Below, piece after piece: positions 5,930 to 40,170 of a stretch of DNA of 64,000 bases (position 1 is its first letter; each line of letters starts with the position of its first letter). The DNA lies in contig JAJEKV010000026.1 in the NCBI GenBank assembly GCA_021234155.1, positions 17,839,147 through 17,903,146 on the forward strand, given 5' to 3'. This DNA is from Isoetes taiwanensis. Lineage: Eukaryota; Streptophyta; Lycopodiopsida; Isoetales; Isoetaceae. Position numbers and translations under genes: made by a program. The notes beneath the pieces are model-generated. The model was not told the origin of the DNA. It made no database searches and saw only the letters and a list, made by a program, of their open reading frames with translations.

Positions 5930-8900
5930 CCCTATGCCTTGCCAGGTTATTGTAGGGTTTGTGTTATGGAGGTCGGGCTTTGGTCCATTGCACTTGGGAC
6001 ATGGTCGAGCAGCTGCTTTTGAAAACACGAGGCAATAGAAATTGCAAGAATGGGGTTTGGATTTATTCTCCTCCTAGTTTTGCAATTAAAAGTGTAGAGC
6101 GCCTTATGCAGTAGCAAAATTGTTTGGGGTCACTCGGATTGGCGACTAGATCGAAACTCTGTTATTTCAGTTCTCATGGCTCCCCATGCATGTTTAGAAA
6201 TGGTCCACCTAGTTATCAAAGAAGTCGACCACGTTTTGGCCTCCAAAACGTAAACCCTGTGTGTTGCTAGGTTATTGTAGGGTTTACGTTATGGAGGTCG
6301 AGTTTTATTCAGTTGCACTTGAGACGTGGTCCAGAAGCTGCAGTTGAAAACAAGAAGCAATAGAAACTAACGAAATGGGGTTTGGATTTACCGAGGCAGG
6401 CTTTCCTACCAGTGCTCCTCCGGGAGGGCAAATGCAAATGCCTCCCTTCCCGGAACCCGGTTTCCCTATCCGACCATTGAATCCACGCTTCAAGTAACTT
6501 GCTTCGAGCAGGTTCAAAAAAATTCAAGATCTGTCCGGGACAACATATCAAACCGCAAAGTGTCCTGCAGTCGACCGTGTAGAAACCCAAGTGTTTTGTC
6601 GTTCGGGTAGTACAGAGGCTCCGGAATGGAGAGTTGACTTTGCCATGTCGTCCGAAACAGCGAAATGACCCTAGGGACCAAGTTACACGGTCATTTTTTG
6701 CAGCAAAAGAAACACGAACCCTCTACATGGCAGTATTCTGCACCCTCCACTAAGGCCAATTCACTACGAACGTGTTGGACATGAGCTACTTTGGCGCTTC
6801 CTGGAGCAGGGGTTGTCTTCTGCCCACGAAACTTGGTCTCCAAGGTAATGTCGATGTTTCGAGTCCATTGGCAGAGTCAGATCACAGTTCCGAGGTGGGA
6901 GAGTTGCCCGTCCGTGGCCAGGGACCTTCCAGAGAGGACCTTTGGATCGAACTGCTTCTGGAAGGTTTTAGGGCTCCGTCCTCTGGCGGCAATGCCCTCC
7001 CACTACCTCATGACATTGTGAAAGATCCTGGTCCAATCTGACTAGGGTATGGCCTCCAAAACGTAAACCCTGTGCCTTGCCAGGTTATTGTAGGGTTTAC
7101 GTTATGGAGGTCGAGTTTTATTCAGTTGCACTTGAGACGTGGTCCAGAAGCTGCAGTTGAAAACAAGAAGCAATAGAAACTGACGAAATGGGGTTTGGAT
7201 TTACCGAGGCAGGCTTTCCTACCATTGCTCCTCCGGGAGGGCAAATGCCAATGCCTCCCTTCCCGGAACCCGGTTTCCCTATCCGACCATTGAATCCACG
7301 CTTCAAGTAACTTGCTTCGAAGAAAGGTTCAAAAAATTCAAGATCTGTCCCGACAACATATCAAACCGCAGTGTCCTGCGTAAATAATCGTAGAAACCCA
7401 AGTGTTTTGTCGTTCGGGTAGTACAGAGGCTCCGGAATGGAGAGTTGACTTTGCCATGTCGTCCGAAACAGCGAAATTACCCTAGGGACCAAGTTACACG
7501 GTCATTTTTTGCAGCAAAAGAAACACGATCCCTCTACATGGCAATATTCTGGACCCTCCGCTAAGGCCAATTCACTACGAACGTGTTGGACATGAGCTAC
7601 TTTGGCGCCTCGAGCAGGGTGGTCTTCGCCCAACCTAAACTTGGTCTCCGTGGTAATGTCGATGTTTCGAGTCCGCTGGCGAGTCCGATCACAGCCCCGA
7701 GGTGGGAGAGTTGCCCGTCTGCGGGCCGTGGACCTTCCGGAGAGGACCTTTGGATCGAACCGCCTCGGAAGGTTTTAGGGCTCTATCTTCCTCAAGGCAA
7801 TGCCCCTCCCACTACCTCATGACATTGTGCAAGATCCTGGTCCAATCGGACTAGGGTATGGCCTTGCCAAAGTTATTGTAGAGTTTTTATGGAGGTCGAA
7901 GTTTTATTCATTTTGCACTTGAGACATGGTCGAGAAGCCGCAGCTTGAAAACAAGAAGCAATAGAAACCCATTTAAATGGGGTTTGATTTATCGAGGCAA
8001 AGCTTTCCTACCGTTGCTCCCGGAGGGCAAATGCCAATGCCTCCCTTCCCCGAACCCGGTTTCCCTATCCGACCGCTGAATCCACGCTTCAAGTAACTTG
8101 CTTCGAAAGGTGTCAAAAAAATTCAAGATCCGTCCGGACAACATATCAAACCGCAGTGTCCTCGCAATGACCGTAGAAACCCAAGTGTTTTGTCGTCGGA
8201 GTCCTTTAAATTACCCTAGGGACCAAGTTACACGGTCATTTTTTGCAGCAAAGAAAAGAAACATCTAACCCTCTACATGGCAAGATTCTCGCACCTCCGC
8301 TAAGGCCAATTCACTACTTAACGTGTTGGACATGAGCTACTTTGGCGCTTCCCGAGTGGATGGTCTTCCGCCCACGAAACTTGGTCTCCGTGGTAATGTC
8401 GATGTTTTCGAGTCCGCTGGCGTAGTCGATCAGGGGGCCCGAGGTGGGAGAGTTGTGCCCGCCCATGGCCAAAGCCGCAGCTTGAAAACAAGAAGCAATA
8501 GAAACCCATTTTAAATGGGGTTTGGATTTACCGAGGCGTGCTTTCCTACCGAAAAGCTCCTCCGGGAGGGCAAATGCCAATGCCTCCCTTCCGGGAACCC
8601 GTTTCTATCCCGGGCAGATTGAATCCACGCCTTTCAAGTAACTTGTTTCGGAAAAGGTGTTCAAAAGAATTCAAGATTTTGGTCCGGACAACATATCAAA
8701 CCGCTTGAAAAACAAGAAAAGTGTCCCGCAATGATCGTAGAAACCCAAGTGTTTTGTCGCTCGGCAGTACAAAGGTTGGGGAATGGAGAGTTGACTTCGC
8801 CATGTCATCCTAAACAAATAAAATTACCCTAGGGACCAAGTTGGTCTGGCCATTTTTTGCAAAAAAAAAGAAACATTTTAACCCTCTACATGGCAAGATT

Positions 8901-9443
8901 CTCGCAACCTCCGCTAAGGCCAATTCAATTACCCTAGGGAAACGTTGGACATGAGCTACTTTGGCGCTTCCCCCGAGCAGGGTTGGTCTTCTCGCCTACC
9001 TAAACTTGGTCTCTAGGGTAATGTCGATGTTTCGAACCGCTGGCGCAGTCGATCACGCCCGGGTGGGAGAGTTGCCCGCTCGGGCCGTGGACCTTTGAGA
9101 GGACCTTTGGGTCGAATCGCTCGGAAGGTTTTAGGGCTCCGCCTTTCAAGGCCAACGCCCCACTACCTCATGACATTGTGCAAGATCCCTGGTCCAACTG
9201 GATTGGGGTATATTTCCAAAACGAAACCCCGCGGCCTTGCCGACATTATTGTAGGGTTTACGCTATGGAGGTCTGGGCTTTGGTCCATTGCACTTGGGAC
9301 ATGGTCGAACAAACCGCTTTGAAAACACGATGCAAAGAGAAACCGCCGTAATGGGGTTTGGATTTAATCTCCTCCTAGTTTTGCAATTAAAAGTCTAGAG
9401 CGCCTTATGCAGTAGCAAAATCGTTTGGGATCACTCGGACTGA
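5930..9443. repeat. Satellite array A, unit about 0.8 kb, four-plus degraded copies
   Basis: The anchor TTGGACATGAGCTAC occurs at 6775, 7586, 8326 and 8945, giving spacings of 811, 740 and 619 bases; the shorter units carry deletions. Each unit has in order a dyad with AACGTAAACCC and GGGTTTACGTT, a GGGGTTTGGATTTA block, CCTATCCGACC, CAAGTGTTTTGTCG, CCCTAGGGACCAAGTTA, the anchor, and GAGAGTTGCCCG. The same order occurs in array B at 43.2-51.4 kb, so the two are diverged subfamilies of one repeat. ORFs in the units are not conserved in frame and I do not call them genes. Confidence 0.85.
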
Positions 9444-10434
9444 CCTTGCTTACTTGGCATGCCATGTCACCACTTGGAGTGCCCAAGTGGCCTAGGTGGC
9501 ATATTGGTGCCTAGGTGGCATGCCTGAGCCACCTTGGCATGTTGGAGCCTAGGTGGCATGTTGGAAACGACATGGCATGTTTGAGCCACCTAGGTTCAAA
9601 CATGCCACCTAGGCTCCAACATGCCACCTAGGCTCAAACATGCCAAGGTGGCTCAAACATGCTACGTGGGCTCCAAACATGCCAAGGTGGCTCAAACATG
9701 CCATGTGGGCTCCAACGTGCCACCTAGGCTCTAACATGCCAAGGTGGCTCAGGCATGCTAAGGTGGCTCAAACATGCCACATGGACTCCAACATGACAAG
9801 GTGGCTCAAACATGTCACGTGGGCTCTAACATGCCACCTAGGCTCCAACATGCCAAGGTGGCTCAAACATTCCACATGGACTCCAACATGCCAAGGTGGC
9901 TCAAACATGCCACGTGGCTCCAACATGCCACCTAGGCTCCAAATGCCAAGGTGGCTCAAGCATGCCACCTAGGCACCAACATGCCACCTAGGCTCAAACA
10001 TGCCAAGGTGGCTCAAACATGTCAAGGTGGCTCAAAAACGCCATGCGGGTCTCCAACATGCCAAGGTGGCTCAAACATGCCATATGGGCTCCAAACACAT
10101 GGCCAAACATGGTAGGCTCAAACATGCCAAGGTGGCTCAAACATGACACGCTGGAAGCTCCAACACGCCACCTAGGCTCCAACATGCCAAGGTGGCTCAA
10201 ACATGCTATGTGGGTTTCCAACATGCCACCTAGGCTCCAACATGCCAAGGTGGCTCAAGCATGCCACATGGGTCCAACATGTCAAGGTGGCTCAAACATG
10301 CCACCGAGCTCTAACATGCCACCTAGGCTCAAACATGATAGTCGGGGCTCCAACATGCCACCCAGTCCAACATGCCAAGGTGGCTCAAGCATGCCACCTA
10401 GGTCCAAGTGGTGACATGGCATGCCCAAGCAAGG
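9444..10434. repeat. CATGCC minisatellite block with inverted termini
   Basis: About 20-22 bp units alternate between two types: CATGCCAAGGTGGCTCAAA and CATGCCACCTAGGCTCCAA. From 9480 to about 9590 the units run in reverse orientation, and from about 9595 to 10400 in forward orientation, flipping around a CCTAGG centre. The block is bounded by near-identical inverted ends, CCTTGCTT..GGCATGCC at 9444-9477 and its reverse complement at 10404-10434, both including CCATGTCACCACTTGG or its complement. Long arms built of short direct repeats bounded by inverted ends are typical of foldback-type elements. No transposase is present. ORFs in it are periodic artefacts. Confidence 0.8.
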
Positions 10435-26050: not shown

Positions 26051-26924
26051 TTGCCAAACCTAGCATCCCATCACCGTAGAATTAGTAGAGAATAGAAACT
26101 ACTAACTTTTTGTACTAATATTAGCATTCATTTCACCATAGATTCATAAAGTTTTAACTACCTAAGATGTCGCTAATTTATAACAAGTGATGCCTAATCT
26201 CAAATAATTAGTACCTAAGATTTTCTTTCAATGTAATGCGTAGAATTTTAAGAAATGTATCCGGACACCGCACTTGAGATTGAAGACAAAACAAGCAAAT
26301 GCAAGTGCACTTCCCCACCGACCAAAGCACCGCCTCCCGCTTGTTAGACATTTGTATCCTCAGAAAAGAAGACATGCAAAAACTATTACATCTAGCCCAA
26401 AGAAATAGTTTTTTTATTTAGCAAAGAAATATTCTACCATGTATTTGCACTAAGTCGGGCTTATATCCGAGAAAGACACCTGAATGAAGGATTATATCAT
26501 CATGCATGATGAGGCCATAACACAACTTCATTATTAAATCACCATTACCGGCCCCATTATGGTATTACATGTGTTGAGTCCCAATAGGTCGCATATAAAC
26601 TAAACTTGTGCCAAAATGATAAAAGGCCAATAGCTACAGTCTGTTATGAAGGTATATCCATTTGCCTATCACAATACTTAATCAAAGCTGAAAGCATCCA
26701 CGGTACAAGCACACCTATTGTATGCCTGCATTCAAGGTTAAACTATCTGTAACTTAAACCGGCGCCTTAGCCTCCCAAATACAATGAAGCATTCTATTAG
26801 GCTGCCCCTTGACATAACCAGCAGGCCTATCTGGAAAAAACCTTATGGGAAAACGCTAAGAAGCAGAGTTTCATTAAAGTTGGAATTCTGAAGACAAGTT
26901 GGAATAATTTTTATATAGTATACC
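26051..26924. other. Unassigned AT-rich spacer
   Basis: No gene or repeat recognised. It could contain the 5' part of the MULE, but no frame supports this. Confidence 0.4.
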
Positions 26925-27240
26925 TTGGAGGGTTATGTATACCTCAATACTTATAGTATGGTTATGTGTATTACAAAAGGTTATGTATACCTGTTGCATA
27001 CTAGTATACCTCAATACATATAGTATGGTTATGTGTATTACAAAAGGTTATGTATACCTGATAACAATAAGATTACAATAAGTACAACCAGATTACAATA
27101 AGAAAACAAGTACTATTATTTTACTATTACTTATATTACGGTTATGTGTATTACAAAAGGTTATGTGTACCTGTTGTATACTAACACAACCAGATTACAA
27201 TAAGATAACAAGTAATATTATTCTTCTACTATTACTCGAA
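26925..27240. repeat. Tandem/dispersed GGTTATGTGTATTAC repeats
   Basis: GGTTATGTGTATTACAAAAG occurs at about 26959, 27026 and 27138, each followed by GTTATGT(A/G)TACCTG. The intervening segments share CCAGATTACAATAAGA. This forms two close direct copies and a third one 110 bases on. Confidence 0.8.
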
Positions 27241-27519
27241 TGATCGAACCAGCGTAAGGCCTCGAGAGATCCTTTCGATCATGAACATTTGATACCCCTA
27301 TTCCCACGTGAGATGGATGATAACATCGACGGATCGTGGATAATGGCGAGGATTGAGAGCAACAAGCAGGTGAGCCAGCCTTCAAGCGGTATATCTCGCC
27401 AAGGCACCGCTTGAAGTCCTCATGATTCATCTTGCAAGTGATAGAATCACGCTCAAGACCGAATACGCCATAGCTAGACGGAGGCCAATGTTGTCGCGAC
27501 TCGGCAATTTGATGTATAT
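27241..27519 (-). other. Short weak ORF between repeats
   Basis: A 104-codon - strand frame (27218-27532) covers this stretch. It is Ser/Cys/His containing and matches no family I know. The stretch has higher GC than its flanks, so it could be a fragment of an element gene. I see no start or splice context that supports it. Confidence 0.2.
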
Positions 27520-27626
27520 TTATACCCACCAAAATTATTGATGGTATATACCCACCAAAATTATTGATGGTATATACTCACCTAAATTATTGATAGTATA
27601 TACATAGAAATTATTGGATCATATAC
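27520..27626. repeat. Short tandem repeat, about 29 bp unit
   Basis: ACCCACCAAAATTATTGATGG followed by TATAT recurs two times with little change, then twice more in degenerate form (ACTCACCTAAATTATTGATAG and a shorter copy). Confidence 0.8.
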
Positions 27627-27639
27627 ATGTATGGTACTC

Positions 27640-27840
27640 AGATAAAGGCAATGAACACCAATAATTCACATCAATAATCTTACTTCACTATAAAAGCAGC
27701 TCCATCCTAGGTGGTAGAGCTCATTCATCTCCCATGGCTTCCTTGCCCGATCGCCCGTGAGAACATCCGATCCTTCGTGTGCTACCTTAGCTATAATGAT
27801 CCGTGTGAATGCTACGAAATGGTATCAAACTTGATCCATG
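27640..27840 (+). mobile_element. LTR-like TATA module with possible primer-binding site
   Basis: A TATA box (TATAAAA at 27689-27695) sits in the context TACTTCACTATAAAAGCAGC. About 130 bases later comes TGGTATCAAACTTGATCC at 27820-27837. That resembles the initiator-Met primer-binding site of plant LTR retrotransposons (TGGTATCAGAGC) with mismatches. A related module without an obvious primer site lies at 28305-28400. I infer remnants of a small LTR element family; no gag or pol is seen. Confidence 0.4.
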
Positions 27841-28304
27841 GTCGCAGTCCAAAGCAGATGGTCCCATGAAAAGTGCTTGCAAGAAGCTCACTCGTGTTAA
27901 GGTCCACCTTTATTGGCTTCCCCGATCAGGGAGATCTATGAGCTGAATAGCATCACGCGGCTTTGATGTTGATGATGAGTGAATCAGATCCGCTAAGGAT
28001 ATAATAATGACATGAGTACCTAACTATGCAAGTCGCCTTTAATTTCAATCACACCTATATTAGTCAAGCAAAGAATGACGCAGTGAATCATCGATGATAT
28101 GTATACTGTTAAGGATATAATAATATAAGCACTTATGATTTGTGTATCCGTTAAGGATATATATAATATAAGCATAGTGAATATTAGTTGATGTATAGAA
28201 TCTGAGTACATGATAGAATCGCACTGCACGAAAGTACATGATACTTGTATACGCCCGCATTTGAAAGTACATGATACTTGTATACGCCAATGATGGCGCC
28301 ACAC

Positions 28305-28590
28305 CCACCCCAATAATTCACATCAATAATTTTACTTCACTATAAAACAGCTCCATTCGGGGCTAGAGGTCATTCATCTCCCATGGATTATTTGCCTTCT
28401 TCTATTCACCACATCGAGGCGCATTAAGTGCTCAATGAGCCACTCGATCTTGTTGGTTGCCTAGATGTGCATCTTCTTCTTGATCCCTACCCGGGAAGAA
28501 AAGCTTTGGGCTGAGATTCATTGCCCTCCAATTCGTGTTATGATCCATCCTGATTTGGCTCCCTCGAGCGCATGAGCTATGAGATATCAG
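28305..28590 (+). mobile_element. Second LTR-like TATA module
   Basis: It aligns with the module at 27640: CAATAATTCACATCAATAAT, then TTACTTCACTATAAAA (TATA box at 28341-28347), CAGCTCCAT and TCATTCATCTCCCATGG. Downstream similarity returns at about 28525-28590 (GTTATGATCCA against GTTAAGGTCCA, then TTTGGCTCCC and ATGAGCTATGAG). The two modules are about 660 bases apart in the same orientation. Between them (28180-28290) a GAAAGTACATGATACTTG phrase is directly repeated. Confidence 0.5.
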
Positions 28591-28599
28591 GGATCACTA

Positions 28600-28839
28600 C
28601 TACAGATCCTGAAGATGAATGAATCACCTGTTCAACATATAAGCACTTCTGACCATCTTATCTATGAATCATGTATGCATTTATATATTAAAGATGTAAG
28701 CAGTTATATATGATCACAAATATAGTAATGTACAAGATCTTATGTATTAAGATGAAAGATATGTATTACAAGTACAAGATCTCATGTATTAAGATGAACA
28801 ATGTGCTATTTCTTTCCACATGTCTATAATATATTTTTC
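28600..28839. other. AT-rich spacer with small repeats
   Basis: ACAAGATCT(T/C)ATGTATTAAG occurs twice, at about 28732 and 28782. Nothing else seen. Confidence 0.4.
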
Positions 28840-31320
28840 GAATTTGACTGTTTTTGGCCTCTTGCCATTGGCATCCCTGCATAATGAATAGCATCTAAAT
28901 TTTCATACCTTGAAGGATCGGAAGGATTAGGCCGCCAACGCTTAGTCAACAGTTTTGTAGTCCCTCCAAAGAGGCTTCCACCACGATACAAAAATATGGC
29001 CAAAATATGTAGATTCTGGATCAAGAACAGCATTCTCCTCTGCATATCCTAACCAAGTGGCAGTGTTATCATCTCCAGGTCTGACTAGAACAAACATACC
29101 CTTTGTCACATGTAACGTGAGGATCAAACTCTTCAAGAGGCAACACCGACGCCATCCGACGGCCACAATAAGATGGTAAAGGTCGTGGTGACCAAGGCAG
29201 ATATCGCCGACCTCCTCCGAACAAATGTCGCTTTGTTCTAGAGGAGCTTGTCTTGTTTGTGGCCAAAATGCATCATTTTGAGGACGCCCCGAGCAACATC
29301 CTCCAAAGAGATAAGAAGCTGGTTCCAATACTCAACACTTGCCGTATTGCCTTGCAAACAAGCTACTTTCTTTGATTCTTACATATGTCCTTCCATAGGG
29401 AGATGTATTTGTTGATGCTATCCTTCAACCCCGGAAGATCTTTCAATGTTGGTCTAGGAGGAATATTTTGTGGCACACCACTTGGTATCATTGGCTGACC
29501 ATGTTCATCCTCTTTCCACATTCTAACTCCCCGAGAATCACTGAAGCCACTCTTTATGTGTGGGACGATTTTGTATTGCATAACAGCCAATCTCCCGCCA
29601 TCTTAAATTTGAAGAGCAATGGTTCAAGATGCCCAACCAAAGTGCTATTCCCTTATCGTGGATGAATCCCTTCACATAATCCTTCCAATTTGGAACTTCA
29701 TCAATAAAGTATGGAATTGGGGATTTTGCATTGCATTTGCTAAACAAGTAAAGTAGCTCGTAGTGTCAAAGCATCCGATTTAACTCATCAAGGTTGAAAA
29801 ATTTCCAAATAAAGCATCAATATCATCATGGGTGTGGCCGACCATCATAAAGCCCACTTGGATCTCATCAAAGACCTTAAGCCAAGTCAAATAAGATAAG
29901 TATGAAAAGACATACCTATTTTTGTTTTGCCCTCACGCATTATCAAGTTGCAAATAGAGATTTCGGGGAAGAGGGTTGAACACCTCAGATTCGTTGTAGT
30001 TGAAGTATTTGGCAATACTTCTCCCATGGAAGCAAGTTTGTTCTTCAAAGGATTGATGTCCTTGATCGCTTGCATCCATTTGCAATCTGCAGCTTACTTC
30101 CACATAAGTCACCTATCTTGTCCTCTTGCACCAATTCCAAGTTATGCAATATTCTAGAAAGTGAACCAATGTGGAAGTTTGAATCATCTTTCCATAAATC
30201 AAGTGAAAATGACCATAGGCACACGACCACCATGCCCATGAGTCAAAGCTCCTCACAAACCGCTTCTTCAAGCTTATCACCTCTCCATACAGATTTTGCT
30301 AGATGATGACTTCTAGGCACTAAAGTCTTAACCCGATCCATCTTATCATGTATTATACATAGATGATTTTCGTGAGACATTTGTGACAATGCTCTCCAAT
30401 GCCAATATTGACTTCTGCAAGAGTTGCTCTTTAGCATATGAGCCCGACGTTGAATTGCAAGATTTCATCTCTCTTGTATCTTTTGTTTTTCCAGCTTTTT
30501 GCTTAATTACCACGCCAGATGTTGCATTTAGAGAAGGTCTGTATTTTTGCAATGCTAACATCTGGAAATTCCCTTTTCCATATACTATAAAAGAGTTCAA
30601 GGCTACGCTTGTTCCCCGTAAGCTCTTCAACGATCGCTTCCAACTTCTTTATGTATAAGCTTCTTATTAAGAATGGAAGGAAGCTTATGTACATTTTCTC
30701 TTACATCATCTCTACCTCTTTTTGCTCCTATGGGGAATACTTTCAAAGATTCTCACGAATGAATTGCCTAGCACACATTCGTATGGGCCAATGTAGTGGA
30801 TCCGGGCTTCTTAGAGCCAAGATACCATGTTCGCCTACCTTTGCACCTCGCTTCATATCTCTTTCTCCAATTGTAAAATGTTGATCGACCGATACCTAAA
30901 GCCATGCGCCACCCAAAATGCATTTAATTCCATCCCCTTGAGCACTATCCCTGTCCTCTCCTTCTCCCGTAAGTCACACTCAAAGACGCCAAAAATACGT
31001 AACCCTTGCATTGTATGGTTGCGATAAAAATTCTTTTCTTAATTCACATACTTGATGCTTCGTAAGTTTCTTGTTGCAAGTATTTTGCAAAGCAGCTTTG
31101 TCTTCATGAACTTATTGATTGAAGTTGTGGAGCATAGCCTTCCTCTTTGCTCTTTCCCTTGGGTTGTCTTGGAATCCTATGTGTGTAAGTATACTTCCTT
31201 TTTCGTTTGAATTGAACCTGAATGTTGTCCTCAAATGATTCTATTTCCATATCCTCATTTTCTTTAGCTTCTCGAGCTTGCGTGATGTTGTGAGACAAAT
31301 TCTTCCATCCCGCAAAGATC
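28840..31320 (-). pseudogene. Decayed DUF7869-type mobile-element protein (copy 2)
   Basis: Read on the - strand from right to left: a leader at 31104-31320 with Lys/Arg-rich KRKRKYTYTHR; a middle part at 30500-30694 with FYSIWKREFPDVSIAKIQ; an RILHNLELVQEDK segment near 30130; then VGFMMVGHTHDDIDALFG near 29820-29860. These are followed by EVPNWKDYVKGFIHDKG (29538-29747), RMWKEDEHGQPMIPSG (29363-29590) and a C-terminal KGMFVLVRPGDDN...SWWKP part (28942-29328). The VGHTHDDID signature matches copy 1 (VGHTHDQID), and both end in a KGM(F/L) domain. The core lies in several frames with stops. It is a separate, diverged lineage, not a recent duplicate. Confidence 0.65.
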
Positions 31321-31791
31321 ACATCGCTATTTTCCCATTGTACAAGTGCATTTTCTCACTGGCCTTTCTGCACAAGCATGACATTTGAGATCCTCTCAGA
31401 ATTAGTGCAGAAGGATCTTTCCCACACGAGCCCCACCTTTGAGTCTCCTAAAATTCATCGCCAACAAAGATCCCGGGATCATCAAGACAATTATGGCCTC
31501 TGATATTTTTTCCGGGTCACATGCATGAAGAATGTGGCAATGCTTATCCAAGAGATCAGTTCTTGAGAAACTAGGTGGTGGTTCATCATCATCCGATGCT
31601 ATCCTGCGAGGAAAAAACGTGTACCTAGATCCACCGTAGGATCAATTTCTTCATCTCAGATCCGACACGCTTCTACATGATTCTACATTCGAGGTCGCTG
31701 ATGGAGTAGCTAAATCAATGGCATGATATCTTATATCCCCGCCAAGGCCATTCGATAAACGTGCCCACGCCTCTTCAATGTTGTCGCGCCA

Positions 31792-32418
31792 TCACATGGA
31801 ATCTAAGGATGTGGGTAGGCACCACGACCTCTGTGAACTTGCACCGCTACGTTGAGCGCCAACATTCTTCCCATGGATGCAAGTTCTATTCACCAAGACA
31901 CCCTTACCAACCACGATATTATCGACAAGGTTCACCATATTCTCTCGTGGCCGCCATCGCTTGAAGGAGCGAGGTCGACACCGAAAGTATGATGATGTTG
32001 TGGAGGGACTACTAGGCAAGTTGGGGGTTTCAAGATCGACGCGTTTTCGATGACATAGTTGGGCTCCTTCACAAAAGAGGTTCACTTGATTTCGAGGCCA
32101 TTCGATAAATGTCCCCATCGGCCAAAGAATGTTATCCGCCTCCCTCACACGAATGGGAAGCACATGGGTGGTGGGCACTATGGCTTCAAAGTGACCTCCA
32201 CCCACCACATTGCACCATGGAATGTTCCTGCCATGCAGATGGCCTCTATGCAATTCATGTCCCCTGGCAACTACCACATCCCCATCGACAAGGTTACGCA
32301 GGGGCCTTTTCCTGTGAGAATCAATACACATATATATATACTTGTTAGAGACATGCAACCCTCGATGACATATACTTAGTAAAAATAGCGCGAAAATGTG
32401 AAAGAAATTATACGACAT
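31792..32418 (-). CDS. 208-codon frame resembling the C-terminal repeats of CACTA (En/Spm) transposase proteins
   Basis: One uninterrupted frame contains two related units. The first runs from NLVDGDVVVARG through VLPIRVREADNILWP to GTFIEWPRNQV. The second restarts with VNLVDNIVVGKGVLVN and HGKNVG, but is shortened. The pattern V-A-x-G ... V ... L-x-P ... I-x-W-P is what I remember from repeated C-terminal units in plant En/Spm-like transposase proteins, where a GT(F) and I-A/E-W-P motif recurs. The duplication is also visible in DNA: GGCCATTCGATAAA(C/T)GT occurs on the + strand at about 31747 and 32097. There is no catalytic domain in the window. The alternative is an unrelated duplicated ORF. 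Confidence 0.4.
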   Translation of the reverse strand: MSYNFFHIFALFLLSICHRGLHVSNKYIYMCIDSHRKRPLRNLVDGDVVVARGHELHRGHLHGRNIPWCNVVGGGHFEAIVPTTHVLPIRVREADNILWPMGTFIEWPRNQVNLFCEGAQLCHRKRVDLETPNLPSSPSTTSSYFRCRPRSFKRWRPRENMVNLVDNIVVGKGVLVNRTCIHGKNVGAQRSGASSQRSWCLPTSLDSM

Positions 32419-32481
32419 GAGACAAATGGAAATTTCTGCTCCATTTATTTAAATGGTAGCAGCGCCATTTACCTTTAAATG

Positions 32482-32680
32482 GCGCAATGCGCCATTTATT
32501 TCAATGGGCCATTTCCCTTTAATTTAAAGAGCGCCATTTTCCTTGAAATGGAGCGCTGCGCCCATTTTCCTTTAGATGGCGCCATCTAAAGGAAAATGGC
32601 GCAGCTGCTCCATTTCAAGGAAAATGGCGCTACTGCTCCATTTAAAGGGAAATGGCCCATTGACAGGTAAATGGCATCTT
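32482..32680. repeat. Near-perfect 200-bp palindrome of ATGGCGC/GCGCCAT words
   Basis: The centre lies exactly between 32580 and 32581 (TTTAGATGGC and GCCATCTAAA). The first 50 bases of each arm match except for one or two changes in the GCGCAGCG / GCGCAGCTG segment. Similarity continues outwards through AAAGGGAAATGGCCCATTGA to ATGGC at about 32673, with small indels. Within each arm, GCGCCATTT-type words recur, so the hairpin is built from the same words as the palindromes in the introns of the downstream gene. Confidence 0.85.
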
Positions 32681-32689
32681 TATTCTAAA

Positions 32690-33559
32690 TGCTATATCTA
32701 ATAGCTAGAGTTATGGATTCCTATTACTACAAGATTCAGCAAGACATCAATTGTTGAGAACTTATCTACTGAACAAGATAGAGAAGATCTACCCTTAAAC
32801 ATATTAAAACATTTAACATCCTACATCCTACATTAAACATACTAAAACATTTTACTAGAACTGAATAGCCTATAACCCGAGGTCATTGATGATTCCGGAT
32901 CCGCTATATATCGAATGTACCAAGAATTTGGTCAAGCTCAATAACTGGACAAGTCCGACAAGCGCTTTTGAGAATCCGGACAAGCCGAAAAATGAAGACG
33001 AAGCCACTAGAATGAAGCCAAGCTACCAAGAATGAAGCCGAAATTTAAGAACGGTGGCGCTCAAGAATGAAGACAAGGGCTAAGCGCCGCGAAAAGAAAG
33101 ACAAGCGCCAAGCCGGGCAACCGGCCGCTATCGACTAAGGAACCAACGCCTAAGACGGAATAGACGTCTGAGAATACCGCTTTGTCGACCAAGAGATCTC
33201 AAAGAAATACCCTATTTAATATTGAAACGAGGACGAGGTGCATAAAATCGCGAACCGTCTGAGTCGGTATATAGCCTTCTAATGACCATGTCCGCCCCGA
33301 CAAACAGAGACAATAAAAGCTTCCCATTATGAAGTGGGAGGCGGGCAAATTCAAAGTTCAAAATACGGCAAGGCAAATTCAAATTTCAAATTTGAGCAAG
33401 CAAGGCGGAAGCGGAACAGGCGGCGTGCATGGGCGGAATGACTTAAACTACCTAAAATTTATAATGGCGAACGGGCGGGAGAAACGGACGGGCGGGAAAA
33501 TTCAAAATTTTTAAAATTTGTAGAGACGGACTGGCGGGCGGGAAAAATCGAAATTTTCA
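32690..33559. other. Region upstream of the ParB-like gene
   Basis: 32.7-32.9 kb is AT-rich. 32.95-33.2 kb contains a short repeated AAGAATGAAG(C/A)C and GACAAGC pattern (imperfect tandem words of about 20-30 bases). 33.3-33.6 kb contains recurrent GGGCGGGA(G/A)AAA..TTCAAAATTT words. A TATATAG at about 33264 could serve as a TATA element, but it lies 600 bases from the start codon. No coding feature seen. Confidence 0.4.
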
Positions 33560-33599
33560 AAATTTCGAGACGGACGGCGCCAAGAAATTTGAAGAGACG

Positions 33600-33863
33600 G
33601 GCGTAAGGGTAAAATTGGTTTTCTTTTTCTTTCCCGACTTTTTCTTTTCTTTTCTTTCCGGTCCAATTTTCATTTTCAATTTCATTGTTCTTTTCTCCCG
33701 CCCGCCTTTCCACCTTCCGCCCTTCCGCCTTAGCTTCTAGCCTTTGCACACATTCTCTCTCCTATTCAACCATCTTCTCTCTCTAGCGCCTGTTGATCCG
33801 GGAGCGCTCGGAAAAAAAGTGGAGTAGGATTTATACGGTCCTGTACTTTTATACTTTTATACA
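33600..33863 (+). promoter_or_regulatory. Pyrimidine-rich leader before the ParB-like gene
   Basis: The sequence is strongly C/T-rich (TTTTTCTTTTCTTTTC, CTCTCTCTAGCGCC) and runs directly into ACTTTTATACTTTTATACA and the ATG at 33864. Pyrimidine-rich leaders and promoter patches are typical of plant genes. A transcription start somewhere in this stretch is inference; no sharp TATA box was identified here. Confidence 0.4.
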
Positions 33864-36800
33864 ATGGCGCAATCTTCGATCAAAATCCAGGAGCCAGGCT
33901 CAGGTTAGTATCTGTTGTTTCTATTCTTATCGATTTGTAGTGTCTTAGGTAACTGAAATGGCGCGGACGCGCCATTTCATTAGGAGAGGGTGGGCTTGTA
34001 GCAGCCTTTCCTCCTATAGTTTATGAAATGGCGCAGGTGCGCCATTTCCATAATGTCTGTTAATATTCTTGTAGAAGCGGACCCATAGAAGAGCAAATGG
34101 CGCATCTGCGCCATTTGCTTTTCGAAGGGACCCATAATAGAGCAAATGGCGCAGGTGCGCCATTTAGACTAAATGGCGCAGGTGCGCCATTTAGCTTTTA
34201 TATAATAGAGCAAATGGCGCAGGTGCGCCATTTAGACTAAATGGCGCAGCTGCGCCATTTAGTCTAAATGCCGTTTGCTGTTTTAACTTTCTAGCACATG
34301 CCATTTCTCTCACCATGCTTACCTCGCAGCGGCTAGTGCGCCGAAGAAATGGAACGTGGTGACTTCGAGGAGCATAGTCCTCACTGGAAGGTCTTGGTGT
34401 ATGGAGATCGTTAGAGCCATACCCTTGACTGAAGGCGTAGACCCAACCAAGGGAGACAAGAGGCGAGAACTTTGCCTCCTTGTCAAATCAGGTACAGGTG
34501 AAGAAGGAGCTCACCGTGGGCCTGTGATGGGCATCATTGTCAACATGAGGGAAGTCAAGAAACAAGGAAGACTTGACTTTCTTGGTTGCACTGATGGAAG
34601 ATCCGGTCATTGGCAAAGATTGATCTCTATTGCATGGATTGGCAAAGTTTAACGAGCCCGCAATGATGGAGTCCAAAGATGAAGGACCAAGCAACACCGT
34701 CGGCCAAGAAAAAGGTTGGTCACGCCATCTTATGAGTCCAGAGAGCAAGCAGATATCAAAGGCACGGTAGAGATCCTCAAAGGATTCAGTATTCTGCGAG
34801 CGGCAATGGACATGTCCAAAAACTCCGTGTCCTACATTGTAAGAGCGAAGATCTCAGGCAACATGCCAGCAGTAATGGATAGCAGATGGCTGCTGGGAGA
34901 GATGCAGAGAAAAGGTGTAAAAACTAAAAATGCCACCAAAGCTGGCAAAGGAACAAAAACAGGTGGAGGTGGTGAAGTACACAGGGAGACAGAACAAGAA
35001 GAAGGACGAGAAGTTGAGAAAGGGGAGGAGCATAAGGATGAGAAGAGGGATGAGGCTGATGCTCACAAACATGATTCTCCCGTGAAGTCCACTGAGAAGC
35101 CTGCTGATGAGAAGCCTGCTGATAGTGACCGCACTATTAGTGACAATAAGGAGGCTACAAAGCACATAAGAAATGTAGCATCCACAGCAGATAGCACTCC
35201 AGCAAAGAGAAAGCCAGAAACCAAAGCACAGATAAGGGCCAGGAAATTACAAAAGATTGCAGATCTTGAAGTGCCCGAGGAACTAAAGATGGACCGTGAC
35301 GAAGAAGAAGAAATGGCAGAGGAAACACTAAAGAAAATACAAAAGCACGGCCACATGTTCCCCCTTGGAGTCACATACACCAGAAGAATATCTATCTGGG
35401 ATCTAGAAGAGGCCCCACCTAATATGACCACCAGGGTTATTAACCCCGAGCATGTTAGGAGGCTCTGCAAATCATTTGCTGAGGATCCACACCCGGTATT
35501 CACTCCAGCAGATGTAGTGCCCTTTGATCCGGATACAAAGGAGTTGCTGAGCTGGTCACAGGAATCTGATCTGATTCGGAAAAGATTTTATATTATCAAT
35601 GGTAATCATTCTATTCGCCGCCGCCGTCAGGTGCGCATAAGTTGGGGATGAGAGGATGCTAGAGCCGAGCTCGGCAAGATCTATGTCTATAGAATATGCA
35701 CGAGTTCTTTCCGAGAGATCGATTGACTGGACCTTCTTCAGCTCAGTGTGGATGTGAATGATAGTAGCAAAGACTGTCTTCAAGGAACCATATGTGGATC
35801 AGATCCACCATCTTCGCAAGCAGTACCAGGAATGCGGAAGACCAGCCCCTGCTGGTAAAGGACAATCAAGAAGTAACGAGTACAAGGTATGTTTACGTCT
35901 CCTTACCCATACATTTATCGTAATGGCGCAGCTGCGCTATTTACATCAAATGGCGCAGCTGCGCCATTTGATGTAAATAGCGCAGCTGCGCCATTAGATG
36001 TAAATAGCAACATTTGAAATTTAAAATCGCCCGGACTCTCTTGCAAAGACTACCTTGAAATGGCAGACAAGATTCTGAGGGGCAAACACACGAAGGATGT
36101 CAATCGGTTTGTCTTCATGCCAGATGATGTCTATGCACTCTTCCGCCAGATGTGGAACAAATGGAGGAAGGGAGAACTTAAGGACAACAGGGGTCAAGCT
36201 ATAGTAATCAATTTTGCTAAAGACAAAGATTACTTCAGTGACAACTACCTTAGATGCATGAGGGGCTTGGACTATGATGATTGTAGAAAGGTCCTCGAAG
36301 AAGCTTTAAGCGGGGATATATACGCCAAAGTCACCCTCGGATTACAAAGGCGATAATTTCTTCAAGACGAGGGCTTGAACTTAAGAGTACTTGCTTACAT
36401 GAAGAAGGAGATACTGCACTTCATTGCAGATCAAATTGGCACTAAGTACAAGAAATTCGAGGACCTACGGAAAGCCACAGACCACTTCTCAGATAAAGCA
36501 CTTCTGGTTTGGGGGGTATGCCACCATAAGTGGGTACAGGAAGGAATACTCAAAGAGGGAGTTCATGGTAACATGCCATTCTCCTTGGCCAGGTCCATTC
36601 GAAAAATCCTTCAGCCTGAAACAGAAAAGGAGAGTACAACCAGATGGTTTGTGGAGCATGTCACTGCCGGGGGGATTCCGAACGAACATGCAGTTCTACC
36701 TGCCAGCATGATATGTTTAGATGCAAGGCAGCTTACTCCAGTTTGGAAAAGTGAGATCAGAATCAAGGCGTTCTTCGATAAAGTCTCACGATGATGATGT

Positions 36801-37400
36801 AGAGACATCTTTGGATTCTATGTTTCGTCGGTAGGAGCATAACTTACTATTTGCCGGCGCTTGAAAGACTAGAATCCGGTCAAGAGTGTTTGTAGGAATC
36901 TATGAAGAGGAGACTGGAGCTGTGTGGTTCAGGAATCAAAGAGCCACAAGCTCTTCTATTTGCTACGAGGATTTCAAAGACAGACGGAGAGAGCTCGACG
37001 AAGACGGACCTCGTGCTATTTGGCGACCATCCTAGAAAGCTCCCGCAAATTCCTTCTATTCCTAAGGAAGCCATCGGAAGTGAGGGCGATGTTATGGCTA
37101 AAAAACTCATGCAAGATGAGTTTAAGTGGAGTTGGTGGTATGGAGGAGAATATCCGATGCATAAACAGATTGGTCCCGCGAATCTGCGTTCTACCTTGTT
37201 GATAAGCTCGCCCTCAAGGTAACATCGTACTAGATTTCTTCTCGGTGGAGCCTTCTCTAGGGCATCCCTTCATGTAGGAAGAATGGGTGTGACATACGAG
37301 CATGAGTTAGGAAAGATGAAATGCGAGCGGGCATTTCGGTAGGGTCGAAGAACGCCATGTACCCCCGCTTGACCCAAAGGCCATTGACCAACGCCAACGT
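33864..37400 (+). CDS. Multi-exon gene with ParB-like and DNA amino-methyltransferase-like motifs, frameshifted
   Basis: Exon 1 (33864-33903, MAQSSIKIQEPGS) ends at a GTTAGT donor and joins in phase to exon 2 at 34330 (after CTCGCAG), which reads SAPKKWNVVTSRSIVLTG. Later coding blocks are 34716-35651 (Lys/Glu-rich linker, then the ParB-like part), about 35700-35886 (KEPYVDQIHHLRKQYQECG, donor GTATGT), 36049-36356, 36375-36794, about 36890-37170, and 37170-37380 (methyltransferase-like motif). The blocks join only through frameshifts, near 34650, 34710, 35640, 36350, 36800 and 37243. Fusions of ParB-like and DNA methylase domains are known in phages and mobile elements; by analogy this protein may bind or modify DNA. 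Palindromes fill its introns. It could be an unrelated plant protein, but two independent motifs in the expected order support the call. I saw no clear DPPY catalytic motif. Confidence 0.45.
33955..34260. repeat. Intron-1 palindrome cluster (seven copies of the AAATGGCGCA type)
   Basis: Palindromes of 22-26 bases, each made of (G)AAATGGCGC and its reverse complement around a variable 2-4 base centre, lie at 33955-33978, 34025-34048, 34093-34118, 34144-34165, 34171-34192, 34212-34233 and 34239-34260. The last is perfect with centre AGCT. They sit inside intron 1 (33904-34329) of the gene above. The spacers include a TTAGACT link repeated between 34166 and 34238. Outer bases co-vary to keep pairing (GAAAT..ATTTC, GCAAAT..ATTTGC). 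Confidence 0.9.
35395..35640 (+). other. ParB-like (ParB/sulfiredoxin-fold) segment
   Basis: The frame reads RISIWDLEEAPP, then VINPEHVRRLCKSFAEDP, then PVFTPADVVPFDP, then FYIINGNHS. In ParB-like domains an R/I-containing strand is followed by a helix with V..L..S(I/F), a P(I/V)-containing strand, and a (I)(I/V)xGxxR/H motif. The INGNH here corresponds to the last of these. After NHSIR the frame is disturbed near 35630, then DARAELGKIYVYR resumes in another frame. The match is by motif order only. Confidence 0.4.
35920..36010. repeat. Intronic palindromes, including a perfect 36-mer
   Basis: Positions 35941-35976 are a perfect palindrome formed by TTACATCAAATGGCGCAG and its reverse complement. 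It is flanked by partial copies, AATGGCGCAGCTGCGC at 35922 and GCGCAGCTGCGCC near 35980. All lie in an intron between a GTATGT donor (35887) and an acceptor near 36048. Confidence 0.9.
37200..37380 (+). other. Methyltransferase motif-I-like segment
   Basis: One frame reads PQGNIVLDFFS up to about 37243, and the next frame continues GGAFSRASLHVGRMGVTYEH to about 37310. Together these resemble the motif-I region of beta-class DNA amino-methyltransferases (VLDxFxGxG...AA...GR....E). A missing base at about 37243 would account for the break. The preceding AFYLVDKLALK is in the place where such enzymes have a helix before motif I. No DPPY motif IV was found upstream, so activity cannot be claimed. 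Confidence 0.4.
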
Positions 37401-37675
37401 GAAGTCTTGACTTTGCAAGATGGTGAATCTCAGAAGGGGGCAGACGAAGAAGCTTCTCATACATAGAAAGGTGAGACGTCAGGCCAAGCTGGAGCAGAGC
37501 AGGATCAAATTGACCGCAAATAAAATTAACCCTGGATGATTATGAGAAAGTCTCACGATGAACACTTTGGCAATGACTATTAAAAAAATTACGTGTTTTG
37601 AAAAATTGTATCTTATATAATATTTCTATTAATATATATATCTACATGGTCTTCGAAAATATGTGTTATCTATAG

Positions 37676-38065
37676 CAAAATGGCGCGAGAGCACTATTTG
37701 CTTGGTCTTCACGTTCGCGCAAATAGCTACCGCACTATTTGCTCGCTCTTAAATAGCGCGCCTGCACTATTTGCTTGCTTTCACGTTCAAGCAAATAGCG
37801 CGCCTGCACCATTTGCTTCCTTTCACGTTAAAGCAAATATCGCGTTTGCGCTATTTGCTTTGTGGTTATTTCTAAGCTAAAGGAGCGGCCGCGCCATTTT
37901 GTTTGCTTGCTGGGCGCTTTTTGGCAATTTAATATCTGCTTTTGTGGTTCTTGGGCCGCTTTTCCTCATACTTTCCAAGTAAATGGCGCCATAACTAAAA
38001 CCGCGCTGTTTTATATTAAATGTAGCGGTTTTTGCATGATAACTGGTTTCTTTTTAAGCAAATAG
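37676..38065. repeat. 3'-flank array of GCAAATAGCGC palindromic units
   Basis: From 37676 to about 37865, roughly 57-60 bp units combine CACTATTTGC, CTTTCACGTT and (A)GCAAATAGCGC. Adjacent units pair across as GCAAATAGCGCG..TGCACTATTTGC. Isolated words (AAATGGCGCCAT at 37981, GCAAATAGTGCCAT at 38058) continue to about 38070. The word is a variant (AAATAGCGC) of the AAATGGCGC palindromes upstream and within the gene. Confidence 0.75.
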
Positions 38066-38403
38066 TGCCATATCTAGCCATAAATGTGTGATAAAACAGG
38101 GAAGAAACTAATTTCACGAGAAATTGGAATCACGAAATTTCCAACTTTAATGAAACTCTGCTTTAAGGCCATGATTATATCCATTATACCAAAGCAGGCA
38201 ACAATATCCATACAATTGGCCGCCAAGGATGGATCACTGCATTTCCAGCTAGGTACAGATATAATCCAAAGCCACACTTACCATATATTAACCTATTTTT
38301 ACCAGTAATCGGAACACCAGAGCAGTCCAGGCATTATACAGGAAATAAATTCAGAGATGTACGAATCTAGAACCAGTTTATTTAGAAGATAAGAACTATA
38401 AAC

Positions 38404-38574: not shown

Positions 38575-38744
38575 CTGCAGGAAAACCGCACCTCAAACCG
38601 TGGAAATATAGCTCCTCCGACGCCAAAACGTGGGAGACACCTTAGGTATACGTACTTCAAAAACTCAAAAAAACACCTTCATCGCCCACACACATGTTTT
38701 ATACGGAAAAAAGAGGTGAACTCCCCGGGTTTTTCCCATTGATG

Positions 38745-39598
38745 GATTTTTTTCTTTCTGTTTTCCTCCTTTCCTGATCCTTTCCTCGTGCCCTTTTTCC
38801 TTTCTTTCCTTTTCTTTTTCCCTTTTCCCATGCCTTTTACACATTTGTTTTCTTCTCTTATTTTTCTATACCCAATTTCCTCGTTTTTCCACCTTTTCTC
38901 TCTTCCCCCTTTTCTTTTTTCCCTTTCTTCACCATTTTCCTGTTAGTTTTTCTCTCATGCCCTTTCCCCCTTCTCTTTTCTTGTTTCCCTCTTCCTTTGC
39001 GCTTTTCATGTTCCCTTTCCCCTTTTTCGCTTTCCTTTTTTCTTTCTTCTCACTTTCCCTTTCCCTTCCCTTCTCTCCATCATTTTCTTATTCCCCATTT
39101 TCCCTTCCCTCTTCCTCATTTTCCCAACTTTTCACTCTTTCCCTTTTCTCGATGTGCTTTTTCCCTTCCCTTTCCCTCTCTCTTTTTATTTTCCCTTTTT
39201 CTTTTACTTTTCCCATGTTATTTTTCCTCTTTCCTCAATGCTTCTCTTGTTCTCCCTTTTCCCACGCTCTTATTTTCCTCTCTTTCCCATGCTTGTTTCT
39301 CCTCCCTTTTCCCCTTTCTTCAACGTTTCCCTCTTCCTTTTTTTTTTGGTGCCCTTTCCTCTTCCCTTTTCCACTTTACCTCTTCCCTTTTCCCTCGTGC
39401 CCTTTTTCCAGGTTCCTTTTCCCCCTCTCTTTTTCTTTCTTCTTTCCTTTTTCTTTTTTCCATGCCTTTTTTTCTTCTCTTATTCCCACCGTTTCCCTTT
39501 TCTTTTTTCCCTTTTTCCCATGCCTTTTTGCCCTTCATATTCTCTTTTTTCTCTTTCCTTTTCCTTTTCGCTCTTTTTCCTTTACCCTTTCCCCTTAA
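38745..39598. repeat. 850-bp polypyrimidine tract
   Basis: The + strand is almost entirely C and T, built from imperfect CCCTTTTCC and TTTTCCCATGCC words. CATGC(C) interrupts it periodically, near 38827, 39215, 39290, 39460 and 39508. Three overlapping ORFs of 178-224 codons coding Phe/Pro/Ser/Leu are compositional and not genes. Confidence 0.9.
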
Positions 39599-39722
39599 GA
39601 GATCAAAGCATGATCATCACAGTGGTAGTAAGTCGTGCAACAAATCTCGGCCTTCAGATGCACCCAGATGATCTCGACCATTCAAGTTAGGCTTGATCCA
39701 ATCCAAGACTTACGATATAACA

Positions 39723-40170
39723 TTATAATATAAAGATGAAGGGGAACATTTGTGAAGATTCTTGCTTGGTACTATTATATGCAAACTGTACCAAGTGGAT
39801 ATAATCACCCCATTTGGACTGCTTATTCCACACATAGCTTCTCAACATGTCTTCTAGAATTCGATTGGTGCGCTCCGTTTGACCGTCAGTTTGGGGATGA
39901 TAAATCGTGCTCATAGCCAACTTGGACTGGATCGTGTTGAAAAAGTCCTTCCAAAAGGCACTTATAATCCTGGGGTCCCTATCAGAGATAATTTTCCTTG
40001 GCATCCCATGCAATCTAAATATTTCTTTTCCAATGCTGTATCCGTGGTTCAACATGGCAAAAAGTGAGCCATCTTAGATAACTTATCGACCACTACCATT
40101 AAGGTATCATGGCCCCTTGCTATTCTTGAGAGTCTGGTTATAAAATCCATGCTCACAACCTCCCATACAA
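39723..40170 (-). pseudogene. Ty3/gypsy integrase core fragment
   Basis: On the - strand, SMDFITRLSRIARGHDTLMV with VVDKLSKMAHFLP (about 40050-40170) is followed, after a frameshift near 40045, by LHGMPRKIISDRDPR, STIYHPQTDGQTERTNRI and LEDMLRSYV ending at 39723. These are the catalytic core motifs of Ty3/gypsy integrase, with the first D in VVDKLSK, the second in ISDRD and the glutamate in QTER-type context. No reverse transcriptase or chromodomain is attached. An LTR with primer-binding site in the same orientation lies at 41.0-41.66 kb and may be the same element after internal deletion. Confidence 0.8.

Follow-up and report, generated by a model that had tools for sequence, protein, structure and literature searches.

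In a 64,000-nucleotide stretch of the Isoetes taiwanensis genome (contig JAJEKV010000026.1, positions 17,839,147 to 17,903,146; hereafter the window), our analysis identified an accessory gene that is carried as cargo by a repeated DNA transposon of the DUF7869 lineage. The encoded protein is predicted to join a ParB-like module to a degenerate methylase-like module, and the element harbors arrays of a 22-bp palindrome in its non-coding parts. Taken as a whole, these features may be best explained by an element-encoded, sequence-specific DNA-binding factor with an anti-silencing role similar to that of the VANC proteins of VANDAL transposons, a reading to which we give a probability of roughly 0.45.

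The Accessory Gene Is Cargo of a Repeated DUF7869 Transposon

The transposon spans 11,303 bp of the window (26861..38163) and is bounded by 25-bp terminal inverted repeats (26861..26885 on the plus strand and 38139..38163 on the minus strand), which are flanked on the left (26857..26860) and right (38164..38167) by the target site duplication TAAG. Nearly all of the interval from 26.86 to 38.16 kb aligns, in blocks of about 82 to 92% identity, with two long copies found elsewhere (C907 and C1036). Terminal inverted repeats, some carrying one mismatch, are present in all four copies with both ends (11,303, 11,299, 10,961, and 11,355 bp), and exact 4-bp target duplications flank three of the four: TAAG in the window, ATAA in C907, and TGTA in C1036. 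The flanks of the L019 copy read GTTT and TGTT, a duplication that is either offset by one base or 5 bp long.

On the opposite strand of its left half, the C1036 copy encodes two transposase-side frames of 458 and 730 amino acids (aa). The 730-aa frame (P0009) matches DUF7869 (PF25273; expect value E = 5.8e-40, 137.4 bits vs. a cutoff of 26), and N-terminal helix-turn-helix models remain below cutoff in this protein. By tblastn, P0009 located a broken DUF7869 transposase-like gene at 28792..30911 of the window (minus strand), and the first 382 residues of the 458-aa frame (query P0010) located the upstream part of the transposase-side gene at 31191..32337 (minus strand). This divergently oriented gene, or its remnants, is present in the window, C907, C1036, L015, and L019 copies. 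The left-half gene is termed transposase-like on account of its place, copy number, and family. A CACTA element was also considered for the minus-strand protein and was rejected, as neither the DUF7869 match nor the element ends fit it. The Sola superfamily, which generates 4-bp duplications, was considered as a candidate assignment, and the element is given no superfamily name here. Apart from this element, the window contains another DUF7869-like fragment (2424-2627, plus strand), which shares 46% identity with the C1036 protein.

Sequences of this kind are abundant in the genome. DUF7869 itself is very numerous (best 150 of 9,909 first-look candidates scored). Among relatives of the ParB-like exon, the best 150 of 3,840 first-look candidates were scored, the weakest with an E-value of 3.3e-36, and among relatives of the methylase-like region of the L014 copy the best 150 of 2,285 were scored, the weakest with an E-value of 5.6e-36. 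Because each block therefore has at least 150 relatives with E-values below 1e-35, and open copies keep both, the blocks go beyond a chance likeness.

The original prediction had described a plant gene. The element ends, the TAAG duplication, and the repeated copies assign it instead to the transposon. The L014 locus (C1058:6491500-6501499) stands alone as a diverged copy, in which the palindromes are degenerate and exon 3 is frame-broken. Such a copy could be taken to suggest a family of host genes that serve a domesticated role, since no transposase-like gene was found in the 10 kb upstream of it (E up to 1e-4), but its broken exon, together with the element ends, target duplications, and many copies, among them decayed ones, makes a host gene extremely unlikely, and we rejected this explanation.

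Structure and Conservation of the Accessory Gene

The accessory gene is encoded on the plus strand by three exons, whose splice sites were read from the sequence alone. Exon 1 (33864..33903) is short; exon 2 (34330..35886) encodes an N-terminal domain, a charged linker, and the ParB-like region; and exon 3 (36049..37524, end approximate) encodes a long region of unknown fold followed by the degenerate methylase-like domain, and is frameshifted in the window. Exons 1 and 2 join in frame across a GT...AG junction to yield MAQSSIKIQEPGSAASAPKKW, which agrees with the start codon proposed earlier (the ATG at 33864). Alignment of exon 2 among copies distinguishes the N-terminal domain, the linker, which is of low complexity, and a conserved C-terminal part.

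Several breaks interrupt the window copy. Within its ParB-like region (35265..35886, plus strand), INGNHS (35595-35612) is part of a 322-aa open frame (34683-35651) that breaks shortly afterwards, and the block resembling methylase motif I (37224..37282, plus strand) is split, with IVLDFFS (37224-37244) and GGAFSRASLHVGR (37244-37282) occupying two different frames; the two motifs thus lie in frameshifted exons, as had been noted before. Both long exons are open in two of the fetched copies, L019 (532 + 531 aa) and L015 (581 + 564 aa), and exon 3 is also open in L029 (523 aa), L030 (529 aa), and L032 (522 aa). Copies with open exons keep both the ParB-like and the methylase-like block, and the original prediction that the two belong to one spliced gene is supported. 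At locus L018, the accessory gene is preceded upstream by an unrelated frame of 260 aa (923-1702), in which a RING-like segment rich in cysteine is recognized by eye; the locus also holds a second, partial copy of exon 3 (approximately 6299-6739).

The ratio of nonsynonymous to synonymous substitution rates (dN/dS) was estimated by simple pairwise counts, in which synonymous sites are saturated for the majority of distant pairs. Between L019 and L013, dN/dS was 0.097 for exon 2 and 0.069 for the ParB region, with dS above 2 and synonymous sites near saturation. Close pairs gave 0.29 to 0.49 for exon 3 and, for exon 2, 0.31 (L015-L016) and 0.62 (L019-L017). These values suggest that both halves of the protein have long been maintained, as would be the case for a gene needed by the element, and the L019-L017 value shows that some members are under relaxed selection or have recently decayed.

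A Probable ParB-Like Module in Exon 2

The ParB part of six plant sequences was compared by hhalign with 63 ParB proteins (62 drawn from 64 viral-contig loci that carry the pattern, together with SopB of N15). This family-level comparison gave a score of 29.8 (P = 5.1e-4), while 100 column shuffles reached at most 18.5 and the reversed profile 11.4. In this alignment, EHVKDLCKSF falls on the ParB helix and NGNH on the GERR box, and the plant EHV..L..SF, INGNH, and next block align in order to the boxes of the ParB/Srx family (PF02195). The plant sequences differ from this family in the replacement of the GERR box by NGNH, in the presence of inserts, in the lack of a Pfam match, and in their eukaryotic transposon setting. 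We therefore consider it quite probable, on a profile likeness that lies below the curated Pfam cutoff, that the accessory protein carries a ParB-like module.

Several other searches were negative: single copies gave no ParB match in Pfam, PHROG, or NCBIfam; a profile search of the ParB region against the PDB found nothing; tblastn of the L019 exons (one copy each) against 50,697 phage records gave nothing at E up to 1; and scanning the ParB-region alignment over viral and prokaryotic contigs returned 21 and 14 pattern stretches, respectively, none of which was confirmed.

A Degenerate Methylase-Like Module in Exon 3

Comparison of ten plant pieces with 28 class-beta methylases by hhalign gave a score of 38.4 (P = 2.3e-4), confined to the motif I region, with at most 24.0 for 60 shuffles and 17.3 for the reversed profile. 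Exon 3 of L019 matches PHROG 3008 with an E-value of 3.4e-4, and at E up to 1 both PHROG 3008 and PF01555 were matched by four of the ten plant pieces each. A PDB profile search with the methylase region returned weak matches to methionyl-tRNA synthetase (0.19), RsrI methylase (0.56), and nucleoporin SEH1 (1.3). The C-terminal sequence DFFSGGAF.RA.L...R...E, which lies downstream of the proposed place of motif IV, corresponds to motif I (FxGxG) and the following part of class-beta N6/N4 methylases (PF01555, RsrI, YhdJ), whereas the DPPY motif of these enzymes is replaced in the plant protein and the motif I loop is altered, being one residue short in the alignment. Such a pattern very probably reflects derivation of the C-terminal module from a class-beta N6/N4 methylase.

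The original prediction had failed to find DPPY, and the motif (D/N/S)PP(Y/F/W) is indeed absent from all nine exon-3 pieces checked. Its expected place reads LDAR or LDTR in each of the nine (LDAR at 36717..36728 of the window, plus strand), a place that we infer from the order and spacing of the motifs to be that of motif IV. Because DPPY reads LDAR or LDTR, catalysis has probably been lost, and the module is likely an inactive pseudo-methylase. Hence, the proposed likeness to DNA amino-methyltransferases is retained for the motif I region, where profiles detect it, but does not extend to a working adenine methylase; an intact methylase was rejected for all nine pieces. The recognizable motif I region would fit a DNA methyltransferase that is active and places its marks on the element at the palindromes, but given the replaced DPPY and the shortened motif I loop this is very unlikely, and is the least likely alternative when set beside the transposition cofactor and the autoregulator considered below.

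Fusions of a ParB domain with a methylase were also sought in viral contigs, where 4 of 64 ParB-motif loci carry both methylase motifs in the ParB frame (L135, L140, L145, and L162, the L135 and L145 proteins being nearly identical). A DPPY-like word occurs in 12 of 62 ParB frames, and the fusion label was reserved for the four that also pass the motif I pattern. As in the plant protein, the ParB part of these fusions is N-terminal and the methylase follows; they differ in being prokaryotic-type frames of 439-501 aa with an intact DPPY.

Both likenesses could conceivably have arisen by chance, as motif matches in a transposon protein unrelated to either family. Profile comparison with the ParB and methylase families, which had been proposed as a check, placed both blocks above their shuffled controls, but neither reaches the curated Pfam cutoff, and the plant profiles are shallow (effective number of sequences, Neff, 1.8 and 1.7). 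Nevertheless, the matches are specific, each block resembling its own family only (cross controls: plant ParB part vs. methylase profile, 15.9; plant exon 3 vs. ParB profile, 16.4), the blocks exceed 60 of 60 and 100 of 100 shuffles, and they occur in the order found in ParB-methylase fusions, all of which renders chance resemblance improbable.

Several results, in addition to the L019-L017 value, weigh against our reading of the protein and the role built on it. PF02195 has no match over the genome and none in the six family members (0/6), and the weak Pfam matches of these six disagree with each other (IntS14_C, 0.21; a poxvirus IL18BP model, 0.026; DUF1015, 0.032; EF-hand, 0.15). A single-sequence AlphaFold model of the window ParB piece is poor (predicted local distance difference test score of 51). 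Exon 3 of L019 matches PF01555 at an E-value of 0.0017 with 18.8 bits, below the curated cutoff of 26.7, and the L015 copy has no PF01555 match and matches PHROG 3008 at 0.44 only. Finally, because comparison of the whole plant protein with the four viral fusions was not significant (P = 0.24), descent from a viral-type ParB-methylase fusion is not supported.

Palindrome Arrays in the Non-Coding Parts of the Element

Seven 22-bp palindromes are located in intron 1 (33956..34260), one palindrome and further half-sites in intron 2 (35921..35996), and half-sites together with one imperfect palindrome in the region that separates the divergently oriented genes (32462..32630). All 28 copies of the 8-base half-site in the window are inside the element, where 14 lie in intron 1, 4 in intron 2, 7 between the genes, and 3 in the 3' part; the transposase half of the window element holds none. 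One of the seven intergenic half-sites (33863-33870) overlaps the start codon, and there are none elsewhere in the three exons. Half-site density reaches 33 and 25 per kb in the introns, compared with 5 per kb in the intergenic region.

Across the genome, the palindrome AAATGGCGC-N4-GCGCCATTT has 2,385 exact copies, a count into which conservation between clades is partly built, because the search accepted exact matches only; a permuted control (AAATGCGGC-N4-GCCGCATTT) and a reversed control have 0 copies each. Parts of the accessory gene are present in all four palindrome clusters fetched (C17, C9, C26, and C28), clusters being defined as at least four palindromes on contigs outside our earlier hit lists and taken from the first listed places, which span 11 contigs. 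At three top DUF7869 loci, with 9 kb fetched on the upstream side, the accessory gene and the palindrome are both absent; since these loci are distant (27-35% identity where matching, with one 19% piece), they indicate only that the gene and the palindrome are not general to DUF7869.

The four central bases of the palindrome differ between copy groups (groups set by hand, counts de-duplicated). Window-like copies have ACCT/AGCT in 51 of 63 sites (sites in 12 of 13 copies), L015-like copies CATG/CATC in 35 of 48 (7 of 7 copies), and L019-like copies AGTG/AGCG in 10 of 13 (6 of 8 copies). In the ParB region, the eight copies of the last group are roughly as close to the window-like reference as to the L019 one, and another assignment places five of them nearest the window-like group. 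The clade-matched centers could reflect shared ancestry of tandem units and are not proof of co-evolution. This point, the exact-word search, the distance of the control loci, and the L014 copy, which is the most diverged and has degenerate versions of the palindrome but no exact one, also tell against the reading that we prefer.

Because the palindrome is element-specific, non-coding, and located beside a conserved ParB-like gene, it is most simply regarded as the binding site of the accessory protein, and we find it rather more probable than the contrary that the protein binds it. What such binding would serve can be read in more than one way. TNPA of En/Spm is a transposition cofactor, and a cofactor of this type would bind the repeated sites and bring the element ends together for the transposase rather than act against silencing. 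The accessory gene is encoded beside the transposase-like gene, and the last 500 bp before the right end contain three half-sites, both of which favor a cofactor; the left 5.6 kb, however, is free of half-sites, and 18 of the 28 are in the gene introns, with 14 of the intronic sites at a distance of 3.9 to 4.2 kb from the right end, so that we regard this role as rather unlikely. An autoregulator, that is, a ParB/KorB-like repressor or activator that controls the transposase dose by binding palindromes at the divergent promoter and within the introns of its gene, would be consistent with palindromes between the divergent genes and in the introns of the gene itself, but not with an intron density that exceeds the intergenic one, and seems unlikely as well.

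A Possible VANC-Like Role of the Accessory Protein

Under the anti-silencing reading that we prefer, the accessory protein would bind the palindromes of the element, perhaps as a dimer, loading or spreading as ParB does on parS, and the bound protein would keep element copies free of silencing, as VANC does for VANDAL. Anti-silencing rather than another role is a tentative choice, which we make by analogy. ParB proteins load at parS and spread; a full parS-like system, in which the ParB-like/retired-methylase protein loads at the 22-bp palindromes and spreads, so that the element gains a chromatin state of its own making through which host methylation is blocked, is speculative and would be an unlikely form of this role.

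In Arabidopsis, VANC is reported to be an element-encoded protein that removes silencing and binds motif arrays located in VANDAL introns and upstream regions, with motifs that vary by subfamily (PMC5735166; PMC10398659). The Isoetes element resembles VANDAL in having element-specific motif arrays in its introns and upstream non-coding parts, with variants by subfamily, and an accessory protein whose binding is demonstrated for VANC and presumed here; it differs in that the VANC21 motif is a 9-base word (PMC5735166; PMC10398659), whereas ours is a 22-bp palindrome. The arrays of the present element are those of introns 1 and 2 and the region between its divergent genes. The transposase family of VANDAL is presumably different from that of this element, and we know of no ParB or methylase domain in VANC.

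Methylase-bearing transposons are already known. DIRS elements carry a DAM-like domain. DNMT-bearing retrotransposons have taken up DNA methylase genes (PMC5890265). The latter resemble our element as transposons with captured methylase genes, but theirs are C5-cytosine methylases able to methylate CG, and the carriers are retrotransposons (PMC5890265). For a ParB domain combined with a methylase in a transposon, for a DUF7869 transposon, or for a methylase of transposon origin linked to N4-methylcytosine, we found no publication in the openly accessible literature, a scope that lies mostly outside subscription journals and outside preprints and Repbase.

Sequences Next to the Transposon

Directly to the right of the transposon, the window contains a long T/C-rich stretch (38720-39600) with long frames in all three plus-strand frames, followed by a 116-aa frame (39723-40073, minus strand) that resembles, by eye, a piece of a Ty3/gypsy integrase. 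At L019, Gypsy-type Gag-Pol frames, also recognized by eye, begin approximately 350 bp past the right end of the transposon (6409-10000 of the reverse complement).

Implications

If the accessory protein reads the palindrome, it would represent a second, independently built system of sequence-specific self-recognition in plant transposons, assembled from bacterial-type parts. The reading, if true, would also provide a direct test case for the escape from silencing by transposons of non-seed plants, would mean that a methylase fold has been reused without catalysis, and would account for a large, repeated family of genes that might be taken for host genes during annotation.

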